Shown here: piece after piece, positions 7,552-55,589 of the stretch | Position numbering within the stretch: the stretch's first letter is position 1 | How the letters are laid out: every line of letters begins with the position of its first letter | Assembly: GCA_026387665.1 (NCBI GenBank) | Contig: JAPLLG010000007.1 | Span: forward strand, 558,001 to 622,000 | From: Nitrospirota bacterium | Lineage (GTDB): Bacteria; Nitrospirota; Nitrospiria; Nitrospirales; Nitrospiraceae | Direction of reading: 5' to 3' | DNA: 64,000 bases | The notes under the pieces: model-generated | Told to the model about the DNA's origin: nothing | What the model saw: only the letters and a program-made list of their open reading frames with translations | The model's database searches: none | Program-made: the position numbers and the translations under genes

Positions 7552-8196
7552 ATGAAACCCTGCACGCAATGCCAACAGCAAAATCAAGAAGATTCCAAAT
7601 TCTGCTACCAATGCGGGAACTCGCTGGCCACCGCGCCTGAGGCTCCAATCGTCGCAACCGCCGCCGCCACACCCAGCGATGAAGCCATCTGGCGCCAATT
7701 CATCGGCCCCCACGCCGATCGCTACATGGAACATTTCAAGAAGTTTGGCCTAGGCGATGAGCCAAAGTTCGCGCTGACGTGGAATTGGCCGGCTTTTCTC
7801 TACATTTCCTTCCTCTGGTTTCTCTATCGGAAGATGTACGTCTATGCGCTGGTCTATGCCCTCGGCCCCATGCTTTCGACCTACCTGACCGGCGACTTCA
7901 CCGTAGGTCTTGTCTGGAGCATCATGGCCGGAGCCACCGCGAACTATCTGTACTATTGGCATTGCCGCGAGCAGATCGGCGAAATCAAGAAGAGCGCCTG
8001 GACCGATCCAGTGAAACAGGACGAGGCCTTGAAGGAGGCTGGGGGCGTCCAGCCCTACGTCATCTGGGTCGGAGTCGCCATGTACATCTTCTTTGCGCTG
8101 ACGATGATCAAGCTACTGCAGGATGGTCTACCGGACGGAGATCAGATGCCGTCCAAACCGGCCAAGCCAGCAGCGACGAGCACGACGAGTACCTAA
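7552..8196 (+). CDS. Zinc-ribbon membrane protein with DUF2628 domain
   Basis: A 214-residue protein of unknown function. The N-terminus has two CxxC pairs (Cys4/7 and Cys18/21) typical of a zinc-ribbon. About 60 residues later a DUF2628-like region begins (FALTWNWPAFLY...), containing three hydrophobic segments between roughly 75 and 130 and a last one at about 171-191. The C-terminus is a short Lys/Ala/Thr-rich tail. It faces away from argD across a 144-base gap. A decayed copy of the dispersed palindrome follows its stop codon. The domain names are from memory of the families; no function is inferred. Confidence 0.85.
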   Translation: MKPCTQCQQQNQEDSKFCYQCGNSLATAPEAPIVATAAATPSDEAIWRQFIGPHADRYMEHFKKFGLGDEPKFALTWNWPAFLYISFLWFLYRKMYVYALVYALGPMLSTYLTGDFTVGLVWSIMAGATANYLYYWHCREQIGEIKKSAWTDPVKQDEALKEAGGVQPYVIWVGVAMYIFFALTMIKLLQDGLPDGDQMPSKPAKPAATSTTST

Positions 8197-8210
8197 GCGA
8201 GGAGGACCTG

Positions 8211-8286
8211 AGTCGTACCCTTGGGGTACGTTGAAGGTCTGAACGATGCGAAAACGACGCAGGCAGCTGTTCTCACCAGCCTGCTA
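8211..8286 (-). repeat. Dispersed stop-codon palindrome, copy 1 (decayed)
   Basis: A partial copy of a roughly 125-bp palindromic repeat seen five more times in the window. The central GTACC...GGTACG loop region (8214-8230) and the right arm, ending CAGCCTGCTA, are recognisable. The left arm is degraded or replaced by the end of the DUF2628 gene. The terminal CTA (8284-8286) is the stop codon, read as TAG, of the minus-strand gene that follows. Confidence 0.7.
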
Positions 8287-13163: not shown

Positions 13164-13390
13164 GGACACAATCCTCCGACCGGCACTCTGCAAGAATCCC
13201 TATAGAGAATATAGCAGGTGTTTCAGGATTGGCCTGACTCAGGAGGCCATCCAGTCGGTAGGCCTGCACGATGGAGAAAAATGTCCGATTGAGTTCAAGA
13301 ATGAACCGGCCTAGCAAGCTACGAAAAAACTCGGTTGATCCGAAAATCCCGGCCAAAATATTCCGTACAGTACTGGGGCACAAATTACCT

Positions 13391-13516
13391 CAGGATGCTC
13401 AAAAAGACCGTCCAGCAAGGCCGCAGCAAGCGAAGAGGCGAGGCGTACGCTTCGGTACGTTGAGCCTCTGAGCGACGCGAGAACGCCGCTGGCGGACTTT
13501 TTCAGCATCCTACTAG
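13391..13516 (-). repeat. Dispersed stop-codon palindrome, copy 2
   Basis: A full copy of the palindrome. Outer arms CAGGATGCTCAAAAAG and (opposite strand) AGTAGGATGCTGAAAAAG frame inner arms with GGCGAGGCGTACG / CGGTACGTTGAGCC around a small loop at about 13450. It lies in the 3' flank of the LMW-PTP-like gene, whose TGA stop is 14 bases outside the repeat. This is the only full copy in which the stop codon is not inside the arm. Confidence 0.85.
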
Positions 13517-30414: not shown

Positions 30415-30507
30415 CTCAGAGAGGGGCCGTCTACAACGTGGCCGAGAACCGCGTGAGTAATCCATTGCGTGTTAGCGCGAACTGGCAGGATGAAAAAACT
30501 GCCCTTG

Positions 30508-30636
30508 CAGGATGCTCAAAAAGGCCGTCCAGCAAGGCCGCAGCGAGTGAAAGCCCGAGGCGTACCCTTTGGGTACGTTGAGGGTTTGAACGAAGCGAGA
30601 ACGAAGCTGGTGGCCTTTTTCAGCATCCTGCCGCTA
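30508..30636 (-). repeat. Dispersed stop-codon palindrome, copy 3
   Basis: Full copy with arms CAGGATGCTCAAAAAGG (left) and CCTTTTTCAGCATCCTG (right). The inner arms close on GCGTACCC/GGGTACGT near 30567-30580. The terminal CTA (30634-30636) is the TAG stop of the PCP_red gene read on the minus strand. A shorter look-alike (GGCAGGATGAAAAAACTGCC, 30485-30504) lies just outside the left arm. Confidence 0.9.
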
Positions 30637-31635
30637 GAGCGACCCTTCGCCCTTGAGATACCGGCGAAAGCGTCCCATCAAATCGGCGCCGAGCGTCCCA
30701 CCTTCCGGCTTCTTCACGTCCGGATCGGCAAAATGCCCGCGAATTTCCTGAAGGCGCTTTTCCGCCTGTTCATTCCCCTGCAGCCGCTTGGTCTTCTCCA
30801 ACGCCGTATCGAAAGCCTCAAACGTCAACTCGTTGTATCCGAATGAGCGAATCCGTTTGACCGCTTTCATCATGGCCTGATTCCGAAAGCCCGTCAGATG
30901 CTCCGAATCGATCTCTTTGAGCCCGAGCTTCCGAGCCCGCCGCTCGGCGGCCTTGCGGATTCCGCTGCGCACGAAATCAGGAGACGTCTGCAGCCGCTTC
31001 CAGGCCTCATCGGTCCAGGCGACTCGCTCTTGAGGGGCGCCCCACAATTGCAGCAAGATCGACTCGTCGATCTTCGTCACGCCCTTCTCTCTCGCCAAAT
31101 CTTCCGTGTCCCGTTTCAGCATGTCCGTAACGAATTCCACGGCGATCGGCGGCGATTGTTTCAATTTCTCGTGCAACTGGGCCAGCGCCCCCTCGCTCCA
31201 CTCCAAGGGAGGCGCCGAAGCCTCACGGAGATCGCCCAGCGCTTCCACCTTTTCGAAGAGCTCGACGTTCACCTCGAGATGCCCTCGCTCCTTGGCGATC
31301 TCTTCGGCAATTTGCTTGGTCATGCCGCGCATGAATTCCGGCACGGTGTTTAGCCGTTCCTTGGCGGCAGCCGTCCAGGGGAGATGGCCTTGCGCCATTT
31401 GCTCCGCCGCGTCCGCCATGCCGGATTCGCCGCCCATCCCACCCATCATTTGATTCTTGAACTGATCGAGGATCTCCCCCGTAATCTCCGCGTAGCCAAA
31501 TTCCTTGGCCTTCTTTTCGGCCAAACGGCGAACCATGCCGCGCAAAAATAATGGGGCCCGCTCGAGACGTTTGGAGGCCTCGTCCGTCCAACGGACATCT
31601 ATCCCGACCGCATCCTGAGAATCTGGTGAGTTCAT
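30634..31635 (-). CDS. Protein with four tandem PCP_red domains
   Basis: A 333-residue soluble protein with four similar units of about 45-50 residues. Each starts with WT/WS followed by a helix, a P-x-F/V stretch and basic helices. Units begin near residues 16 (WTDEASKRL), 87 (WTAAAKERL), 146 (WSEGALAQL) and 207 (WTDEAWKRL). This resembles Pfam PCP_red, the C-terminal domain of the light-independent protochlorophyllide reductase B subunit. There it is about 50 residues and packs against the Fe-S catalytic core. No photosynthesis genes are present. The function here is unknown; it lies 13 bases downstream of the IHF-type gene. Confidence 0.8.
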   Translation of the reverse strand: MNSPDSQDAVGIDVRWTDEASKRLERAPLFLRGMVRRLAEKKAKEFGYAEITGEILDQFKNQMMGGMGGESGMADAAEQMAQGHLPWTAAAKERLNTVPEFMRGMTKQIAEEIAKERGHLEVNVELFEKVEALGDLREASAPPLEWSEGALAQLHEKLKQSPPIAVEFVTDMLKRDTEDLAREKGVTKIDESILLQLWGAPQERVAWTDEAWKRLQTSPDFVRSGIRKAAERRARKLGLKEIDSEHLTGFRNQAMMKAVKRIRSFGYNELTFEAFDTALEKTKRLQGNEQAEKRLQEIRGHFADPDVKKPEGGTLGADLMGRFRRYLKGEGSL

Positions 31636-47565: not shown

Positions 47566-47813
47566 CAGGAGGCTCAAAAAGTCCATCAGCGAGGCCGCAC
47601 GAGCTGTCGCTTTGTAAGGGGTAGGTGGGATGGCCCCAACTGCTCGCGTCGAACAATATAAATGCTCCCTCCAAGCTTGCTCACTTTCTCTTCAGGGATG
47701 GGGGCTGATTGATCTTCCACTGTGCGCGTCCAACGAGGGGAGTCCTCGACCGCGCGTTGCGCGAGCACAGAAGATCATCAGCCTCCACCCCCCCCTTTTT
47801 CAGCATCCTGCTA
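47566..47813 (-). repeat. Dispersed stop-codon palindrome, copy 4 (composite)
   Basis: The outer left arm CAGGAGGCTCAAAAAG (47566) and right arm TTTTTCAGCATCCTGCTA (47796-47813) match the other copies. The middle is replaced by unrelated sequence. That insert contains its own hairpin, GGCTGATTGATCTTC...GAAGATCATCAGCC, with GTGCGCG / CGCGAGCAC inside (47693-47783). The outer end includes the CTA of the cysNC stop. Together with 47414-47565, this makes up the non-coding gap between mrp and cysNC. Confidence 0.75.
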
Positions 47814-49671: not shown

Positions 49672-49800
49672 GCGGATGATCAAAAAGACCATCCAGCGAG
49701 GCCCGAGGCGAGTCGAAACCGGAGGCGTACCCTCTGGGGTACGTTGAGGATTTCGATGAGCCGAGAACGAAGCTGGGGGTCTTTTTCATCATCCGCACTA
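49672..49800 (-). repeat. Dispersed stop-codon palindrome, copy 5
   Basis: Full copy lying inside an operon, between cysD and cysNC. Arms GCGGATGATCAAAAAGACC and GGTCTTTTTCATCATCCGC match by compensatory changes: ATGATC/CATCAT replaces ATGCTC/CAGCAT of the other copies. The CTA at 49798-49800 is the cysD stop. Confidence 0.9.
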
Positions 49801-50595
49801 CATGTAGCCGTCTTTTCGGAGCAGTTCCATTCCTCGCCCCTCATCCTGCGCGCGGCCCGACCGCTCCGCCGTCGTGGTATGCCGCAACTCATTAATAATG
49901 TCGTCCACGGACTTCGCCGTCGATTTGATCGGCGTCGTGCAGGGCGCGCAGCCGAGACTGCGATAGCGGGTTCCATCTCCCTTGTCGAGATAGAGATCGA
50001 TGAAGGGAATATTCTCGGCCTTGATGTATTCCCAAATATTGATCTCCGTCCAATCCAGCAGGGGATGGATCCGAATATGGGTCCCCGGAGGAAAGGTCGT
50101 CTTGAATTGATCCCAGAGTTCCGGCGGCTGATCGCGGAAGTCCCAATCGCCATGTTTGTCGCGCGGCGAAAAATACCGTTCCTTGGCTCTCGTCCCCTCC
50201 TCGTCCGCCCGCACACCGAGGATGATGCCCGTGTAGCCCTTTTGCTCGATCAGTTGCTTGAGCCCGTTGGTCTTCAAGGCCGTACAGCAATTGACTCGGC
50301 CCATCGCGGGATTCATCCCTGCCGCGAGCGCTTCCTTATTTTGCCCCACGACCAATTTGAGGCCCCACTCGCGGGCCACGCGATCCCGATACTCGATCAT
50401 GGCGGGAATTTTGAAACTCGTATCGACATGCAACAGCGGAAACGGGACATGGCCGAAAAAGGCTTTTCTGGCCAACCAGAGCAGCACGGTCGAATCTTTC
50501 CCCATCGACCACAGCATCGCCAGGTTATCGAAATGCTTATAGGCTTCCCGGAGGATGTAGACACTCTGGTCTTCTAATTGACGAAGGTGTTGCAC
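49798..50595 (-). CDS. cysD: Sulfate adenylyltransferase small subunit
   Basis: A 265-residue PP-loop-type enzyme, the ATP-sulfurylase catalytic subunit. The PP-loop variant [18 protein letters not shown] is near residues 30-47. [22 protein letters not shown] and the C-terminal [10 protein letters not shown] block are typical. With CysN it turns sulfate and ATP into adenylyl sulfate. The TrpD2-like gene is 21 bases upstream. The palindrome separates it from cysNC. Confidence 0.96.
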
Positions 50596-54928: not shown

Positions 54929-55017
54929 AATGACCTCTATGCAGACGGCTGAAAAACCCGGTGAAAAAGAAAAATATAGCTAAAGTGGCCCATATGGCAT
55001 GGAGACATCAATAACCT

Positions 55018-55142
55018 CGGATGCTCAAAAAGGCCGTCCAGCAAGGCCGCAGCGAGCAAAGAGGCGAGGCGTACCCTTGTGGTACGTTGAGCCTCTTTGT
55101 GAAGCGAGAACGCCGCTGGCGGTCTTTTTGAGCATCCTGCTA
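55018..55142 (-). repeat. Dispersed stop-codon palindrome, copy 6
   Basis: The best-paired copy. The outer 16 bases (CGGATGCTCAAAAAGG / GCTTTTTGAGCATCC) and the inner CAAAGAGGCGAGGCGTACC / GGTACGTTGAGCCTCTTTG pair around a CTTGT loop. The CTA at 55140-55142 is the stop of the Rrf2 gene. It separates the regulator from the sulfite reductase gene. Confidence 0.92.
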
Positions 55143-55589
55143 AATGTGGTACATCAACGACCGCTCTTGTTCGAGCACTCGTTGCTGCCCGGCTAATTCT
55201 TCCACGCTGATGGCTTCAAGCACATGACGCTCCGCTTGATGGACCTGCTCCCACATCTTTCCAAGCAGCAGTTCCGGCTTGCTGAGACGTCGCGCCGGCG
55301 TCCGCCCGGCTCCGCCGTTGGGAGGGGCAAGCGGACCGTCGAGCGCCTCAAGGATCTCGACGACCGAGACCTCGGATGGTTTCTTCGACAATACATAGCC
55401 CCCCTGGGCGCCTCGAAGGCTCGACACAAGACCGGCCTTCTTCATGCCATGGAGTACCTGCTCAAGGAAGCGAGCAGGGATCGCTTGCCGACGCGCAATC
55501 GATTTCGCCTGCACTGGCGTGGACCCAGGATGCATCGCTAAATCGACAGCCGCCATGATTCCGTACGTTGCTCTAAGAGAAACCTTCAT
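55140..55589 (-). CDS. Rrf2 family transcriptional regulator
   Basis: A 149-residue regulator. The winged-helix start (MKVSLRATYGIMAAVDLAMH) and the recognition region IPARFLEQVLHGMKKAGLVSSLRGAQGGYVLSK are typical Rrf2. There is no Cys at all, so it cannot be an Fe-S sensor like IscR. It is more like CymR, which controls sulfur assimilation in Bacillus. It lies at the head of the sulfate-assimilation unit and probably controls it. The start codon lacks an obvious ribosome site. Confidence 0.9.
   Translation of the reverse strand: MKVSLRATYGIMAAVDLAMHPGSTPVQAKSIARRQAIPARFLEQVLHGMKKAGLVSSLRGAQGGYVLSKKPSEVSVVEILEALDGPLAPPNGGAGRTPARRLSKPELLLGKMWEQVHQAERHVLEAISVEELAGQQRVLEQERSLMYHI

Follow-up and report, generated by a model that had tools for sequence, protein, structure and literature searches.

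Within the window, the 64,000-nt stretch of contig C7 that was analysed, six related elements lie where the original prediction had placed a family of palindromes of about 125 bp docked on the stop codons of minus-strand genes. Four of the six have complete hairpins (13391-13512, 30508-30630, 49674-49797 and 55017-55139); the copy at 8193-8283 is without its right arm, and that at 47566-47810 has a different interior. A stop codon touches or lies near the left end in five of the six, the exception being the copy that ends at 13512, where the stop is 17 nt off. The hairpin described at the outset is real, yet it is not the whole of the element, since intact copies run ~75 nt further (in the window, 13315-13512 and 54941-55139). 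The features of the window, with the putative MITE to which the hairpins are assigned below, are as follows.

30508-30630, minus strand: hairpin (left part) of the MITE copy of the original finding, by sequence search and folding
30486-30507, minus strand: probable remnant of the right part of that copy, shortened, from the sequence and comparison with full-length copies
30634-30636, minus strand: TAG stop of the PCP_red-repeat gene (30634-31635), by ortholog comparison
13315-13512, minus strand: full-length MITE copy of 198 bp, hairpin plus right part, with an empty site in the relative G255
13513-13516: CTAG target-site copy on the left of the 13315-13512 MITE
13311-13314: CTAG target-site copy on the right of the same MITE
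54941-55139, minus strand: full-length MITE copy, the entire unit being missing from the relatives G264 and G081
55140-55143: left TTAG of that copy; an Rrf2-family gene (55140-55589, minus strand) uses its TAG (55140-55142) as stop codon
49674-49797, minus strand: hairpin-only copy between cysH (PAPS reductase) and cysN/C, found at 25 of 25 scorable ortholog loci
49798-49800, minus strand: TAG stop of the PAPS reductase gene (49798-50595), at the same residue in readable orthologs
47566-47810, minus strand: copy retaining both ends, its interior exchanged for sequence with a different palindrome, adjoining the stop codon 47811-47813
8193-8283, minus strand: copy with an eroded right arm, adjoining the stop codon 8284-8286

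The interior of the copy at 47566-47810, like that of a copy in G264 (C17 near 54200, L254), is swapped for the palindrome CTGTGCTCGCGCAACGCGCG...CTCGTTGGACGCGCACAG. This palindrome occurs at ~20 places on C7 by fuzzy search, and looks like a second dispersed family landing inside the first.

The intact unit of ~198 bp comprises the hairpin and a 75-nt right part, which terminates in TTTTTCcGCAGCCTG, and is bounded by terminal inverted repeats, CAGGATGCTGAAAAAG on the left and CAGGCTGCGGAAAAAC on the right. At the copy of the original finding the right terminal repeat is still recognisable as CAGGATGAAAAAAC at 30486-30499 on the plus strand. A search of all fetched loci yielded 55 full-length copies of 193-203 bp. 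The flanking 4-bp duplications are CTAG, and also TTAA and ATAG: CTAG stands on the left of 31 of the full-length copies and on the right of 22, and the matched flanks other than CTAG are one ATAG/ATAG and one TTAA/TTAA. Since CTAG reads alike on both strands, most of these flanks are ambiguous between a duplication and a longer terminal repeat, and a shuffle test for duplication at the MITE flanks was not significant (p=0.14). True duplication is resolved by the ATAG/ATAG flanks of one MITE copy and by the TTAG/TTAG and ATAG/ATAG flanks of the insertion sequences (IS) described below. At the locus 13311-13516 (C7:571389), G255 reads ATATATTGC-CTAG-GCCGG, with a single CTAG, where the host reads ATATATTGC-CTAG-(198 bp)-CTAG-GCCGG. 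At the copy of position 55018 (C7:613018) the hairpin and ~75-80 nt to its right are jointly missing in G264 and G081, yet two details of this locus count against simple insertion: the empty relatives read TTTGAGG in place of the TTTAGAGG predicted by the simple model, and the site is filled in G159, a relative more distant than the empty ones. The unit has the features of a MITE, being short, non-autonomous and multicopy, with terminal inverted repeats, a fixed 4-bp duplication, and ends and a target that match those of an autonomous element. In some intact copies (e.g. L074, L143, L160, L161 and L174) a reading frame is open over nearly the whole element (195 nt), and the in-frame insertion of such a copy could add a long C-terminal tail to a protein.

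Most copies are without the right part and resemble REPs. Their left flank is CTAG, and their right edge is mostly CGGG-like, as at the point inside full-length copies where the hairpin gives way to the right part. These copies also have hairpins of greater divergence (median 110.8 against 121 bits in full-length copies, p=7e-5), and some of them have a convergent stop ~75 nt past the hairpin, at the place expected for the lost right end. The hairpin-only copies thus appear to be eroded full-length copies. The possibility that the hairpin transposes as a separate unit finds no support, in that CTAG is rare at the right edge of hairpin-only copies; four of these, with the matching flanks CTGG, CTAA or CCAG, are possible exceptions.

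A candidate autonomous partner was sought among the DDE transposases of the genus, and then by matching ends. Insertion sequences of 1314-1318 bp with the ends CAGGCTGCGGAAAAAC occur in other Nitrospiraceae and code for transposases of 363-366 aa, with DUF772 and DDE_Tnp_1 domains, which match the NCBI IS5-family model NF033581 with 267 and 281 bits against a cut-off of 140 (E 1e-79 and 1e-83). The flanks are CTAG/CTAG and TTAG/TTAG in the close group, and ATAG/ATAG and TTAG/TTAG in diverged relatives with the ends CAGTGTGTTGACAAAC; the non-palindromic flanks show a true 4-bp direct duplication. One IS relative (L333) has the end CAGGATGTTGAAAAAG, very near the left end of the MITE. IS5 of E. 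coli is reported to duplicate the 4-bp target C(A/T)A(G/A), e.g. CTAA or CTAG (PMC11677980). The partner element shares with the IS5 family both the transposase model and a 4-bp duplication at a CTAG/CTAA-like target, the ATAG and TTAG targets lying slightly outside the published consensus. Judging from these sequences, an IS5-family transposase probably mobilises the MITE in trans. Relatives of the partner transposase were found in 32 of 108 genomes in a family-wide search. The host genome gave no IS5/IS4-type transposase with PF05598, PF01609 or the partner transposase itself as queries, and the MITE may not be mobile there at present.

The host genome (2.64 Mb, 14 contigs) is read as that of a Nitrospira species, and the detailed census was conducted by profile search on the window's own contig, C7, of 630 kb. 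This contig holds 50 complete hairpins as well as fragments; the search of the host genome returned 210 candidates, and extrapolation from C7 gives ~200 per genome. Matches were found in 77 of 246 sampled genomes of the phylum and, among the genomes of the same family that were listed, in 60 of 61, with 13 to 290 first-look candidates each. The element is thus present in almost every genome of the Nitrospira family, in tens to hundreds of copies. The 80 named loci, picked by exact terminal repeats and hence biased to young copies, come nearly all from Nitrospira or Nitrospirae MAGs. An exact element also lies at 432-554 of L122, on a contig from a MAG that bears the label Pseudomonadota (KLAP69), reflecting either a mis-binned Nitrospira contig or horizontal spread. 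The small genomes (1.7-1.8 Mb) G264 (C17) and G159 (C3) carry 1 and 3 copies in 100 kb (L252-L261), and G081 carries 16 in 120 kb, which suggests bulk loss of the MITE during genome reduction, G264, G159 and others being possibly incomplete. The element had no Rfam match above the gathering score, the matches in the window being two tRNAs only. The open-access literature on Nitrospira palindromes, MITEs and insertion sequences, searched also with the literal terminal repeat, yielded no published description of the repeat.

The association with stop codons extends far beyond the window. Relative to the 658 genes of C7, called by a purpose-made dicodon-trained caller rather than a standard annotator, a co-directed stop lies no more than 4 nt from the start of 31 of the 50 copies, against 1.7% under a random intergenic null (p=5e-42), and no more than 20 nt from the start of 35 (null 7.3%, p=1e-28). 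The upstream gene points at the hairpin in 40 of the 50, and a single copy lies inside a CDS. When all fetched loci are considered and the docked gene is not chosen beforehand, docking within 4 nt is seen in 56 of the 114 hairpin-only copies and in 17 of the 47 that are full-length, with 47 and 16 of these, respectively, at a distance of exactly 0; the difference in docking strength between eroded and intact copies (49% versus 36%) is not significant. The 73 docked stops comprise 58 TAG, 12 TAA and 3 TGA, whereas the genes of C7 use TAG 196 times (30%), TAA 207 (31%) and TGA 254 (39%). The near-absence of docked TGA argues for a DNA target containing TAG or TAA, and not for the recognition of translation ends. 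In ~28 genomes each, orthologs of the PCP_red-repeat protein (30634-31635) and of PAPS reductase end at the same residue, in the former irrespective of the presence, decay or absence of the element, and by this comparison the stop codon pre-dated the insertion at the two loci examined. Both the docking rich in TAG and TAA and the pre-existing stops would follow from a MITE target that itself contains these triplets. The converse, that the element supplies the stop codon, is true in a minority only: a TGA at -11 in the left end serves 6 of 161 copies (e.g. C7:524615).

The tetranucleotide CTAG is six-fold depleted on C7, with 377 occurrences against 2297 expected from base composition. Outside the elements, 178 lie in CDS, 111 are intergenic and 42 are at stop codons, such that stops account for 27% (42/153) of the non-CDS CTAG sites. 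Full-length copies are docked at either end in 22 of 51 cases, somewhat more than this CTAG-only expectation (p=0.054). Most of the docking could thus be explained by target choice together with the presumed loss of intragenic insertions. Orientation is a different matter. The single orientation relative to the gene, claimed for the window, is true of all six copies there and becomes a bias elsewhere: intact copies are docked at the left and right ends in a ratio of 17:7 (16:4 for exact matches), and 56 left-docked hairpin-only copies stand against 10 that are right-docked, the latter recognised by convergent stops 68-83 nt beyond the hairpin. This hairpin-first excess is real, and the insertion model does not account for it.

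The palindrome is very probably the left hairpin of a ~198-bp non-autonomous, IS5-derived MITE, the target of which contains stop codons. According to the mechanism proposed here, an IS5-family DDE transposase, as encoded by the ~1315-bp IS of other Nitrospiraceae, would recognise the terminal repeats CAGGATGCTGAAAAAG and CAGGCTGCGGAAAAAC and insert the unit, duplicating 4 bp, at tetranucleotides of the form NTAR, most often CTAG. CTAG is scarce, and since the stop codon TAG forms part of it, its sites cluster in part at gene ends. An insertion at a stop would leave the stop intact and the copy would survive, while intragenic insertions would presumably be lost through selection. The 75-nt right part would later erode and the hairpin would stay, so that old copies come to look like REP or ERIC palindromes.

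The copy between cysH and cysN deserves separate attention. Every scorable ortholog locus (25 of 25) retains it, both of its arms having undergone compensatory change, and in the reduced genome G264 it is the sole copy above 40 bits in the 100 kb compared, the others being weak remnants. The hairpin lies ~12-20 nt upstream of the next start codon, probably within an operon, and in about half of the lineages TGTTT stands in place of its T5. The broken T tract and the nearness to the next start speak against a simple terminator and, if anything, for an intercistronic structure. This copy may have been domesticated. At the same site in G270, G248 and G263 (L227, L240 and L247) the hairpin loop contains an extra insert of ~50-60 bp with a small palindrome, AGCTGTTCCGACAGCT, and a similar arm replacement is seen at the PCP_red site of G248 (L206).

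The hairpins fold strongly on both strands (z -6 to -8; 0 of 200 shuffles as good), and the copies have diverged but kept pairing, as originally proposed. Among 48 paralogs, 96% of cells are paired and two-sided changes occur at 16 of 26 pairs; among 21 cysH-cysN orthologs they occur at 15 of 37 pairs, where the covariation leans largely on two haplotypes and the independent events are fewer than the cell counts. None of 500 shuffles equalled the observed cells paired or the covariation score. The inner stem (hairpin positions ~36-50 and their partners in alignment A2) is hypervariable, with 31 different 15-mers in 50 copies of one genome, mostly complementary by eye and barcode-like.

Maintained pairing of this kind is what would be expected of a host-owned bidirectional terminator or mRNA 3'-end stabiliser under selection at gene ends, with mobility as its origin only, and the A5-GC-T5 arms, the stable fold, the frequency of convergent gene pairs (22 of the 50 C7 copies) and the presence of the cysH-cysN copy in every scorable genome fit the same idea. 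Such a role is nevertheless unlikely as the explanation, for the insertion target largely accounts for the docking, and at cysH-cysN a hairpin with a T tract broken in about half of the lineages stands within a probable operon. The T5 tract is intact in most paralogs, but conservation of A5/T5 is not specific to a terminator, because the tract is part of the terminal repeat as well; a simple terminator scan is without these hairpins, which its loop limit excludes. Nor is selection on the mRNA strand of the docked gene supported: the antisense strand is the better-folding one in 47 of the 50 copies, sense G-U pairs (21) do not exceed sense A-C (68) among the departures from pairing in the outer stem, the A-C excess coming mainly from two positions, and the degree of pairing does not differ between docked and undocked hairpins (0.94 versus 0.93, p=0.42). 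Of the three roles originally offered, the mobile palindrome inserting at stops holds in outline; transcription termination and mRNA 3'-end protection may be side effects, with the broken T tract at cysH-cysN and an mRNA strand that is not the better-folding one speaking against them. Upkeep of the pairing may instead be due to selection at the DNA level or to palindrome correction, i.e. template switching between the arms in replication. That correction rather than selection is responsible would be compatible with a MITE and is a serious prospect, though somewhat short of an even chance. Double changes, at 98 cells, occur as often as A-C and G-U intermediates together (89), the mRNA strand of the docked gene has no preference for G-U, and pairing is independent of gene context; set against this, conserved interior mismatches imply that correction would be incomplete, and the counts are inflated by the shared ancestry of subfamilies.

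Two other mobile systems were weighed as well. A REP/BIME-type palindrome spread by a RAYT (TnpA-REP, Y1 transposase), which the original prediction had named as a possible mover, would likewise be multicopy, extragenic and near stop codons, and Y1_Tnp matches do occur in 9 of the 21 genomes in a sample of relatives. The host itself, however, has no Y1_Tnp match or candidate; the element, for its part, is bounded by terminal inverted repeats, shows a 4-bp duplication and has a candidate autonomous DDE partner. Its length of 125-200 bp contrasts with the 20-40 bp given for REPs in PMC3733652, and while REPs are tagged with GTAG or CGTC, its commonest left 4-mer is CTAG and GTAG is rare. A RAYT origin is accordingly very improbable, and an IS5-family DDE transposase with an NTAR target is indicated in its place. 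The position directly after stops, mostly in one orientation, recalls integron-type attC sites as well, yet these are dispersed single copies at unrelated chromosomal genes, with no array, and they have a 4-bp duplication and DDE-type terminal repeats, which reduces an integron origin to a negligible likelihood.

The IS5-derived MITE, the preferred reading, has counterparts in other bacteria. One is QMITE2 of Coxiella burnetii (PMC5896051), a ~190-bp MITE with full-length and shorter REP-like hairpin forms, located mainly in the 3' untranslated regions of ORFs and in some cases touching the C-terminus of a gene. QMITE2 differs in its duplications of 7-11 nt and variable sequence, as opposed to 4-bp NTAR, and in containing a GTAG REP, an IS1111 target, whereas the candidate partner of the Nitrospira element belongs to the IS5 family and matches it at the ends. 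ERIC (IRU, RU-1) of enterobacteria is a dispersed, mostly intergenic repeat of ~127 bp with a stable stem-loop, and alters mRNA stability in Yersinia (PMC2229807); it has TA termini and a short TA-type duplication, unlike the Nitrospira unit of 198 bp with its 4-bp NTAR duplication and candidate autonomous partner. YPAL (RU-2) of Yersinia is palindromic, similar in size (168 bp) and known from empty and filled sites, but has internal inverted repeats and duplications of 3-26 bp at dyad-symmetric targets (PMC2229807). The 107-bp RUP of Streptococcus pneumoniae, with terminal repeats matching IS630-Spn1, follows the same logic of an IS-mobilised MITE, with TA targets and an IS630-type transposase (PMC2229807). 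The Chunjie MITE of Geobacter uraniireducens (PMC10969869), likened here by description only, is a bacterial MITE of 235 bp with marked size variation.

The present work identifies a repeat carried by essentially every genome (60 of the 61 listed) of a nitrifier family of global importance, and offers a very probable explanation for it. What appears to be deliberate docking on stop codons would be reduced to a simple mechanism, in which the target happens to contain a stop codon, and this mechanism may extend to other bacterial palindromes that lie beside stop codons. The cysH-cysN copy makes domestication directly testable. It is a tentative suggestion, doubtful as matters stand, that certain of the hairpins now function as RNA or DNA structures after domestication, with the cysH-cysN copy tuning the expression of the sulfate-assimilation operon. 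If true, transposon hairpins brought to stop codons would, more generally, furnish this family with a supply of mRNA 3' ends that can be renewed.
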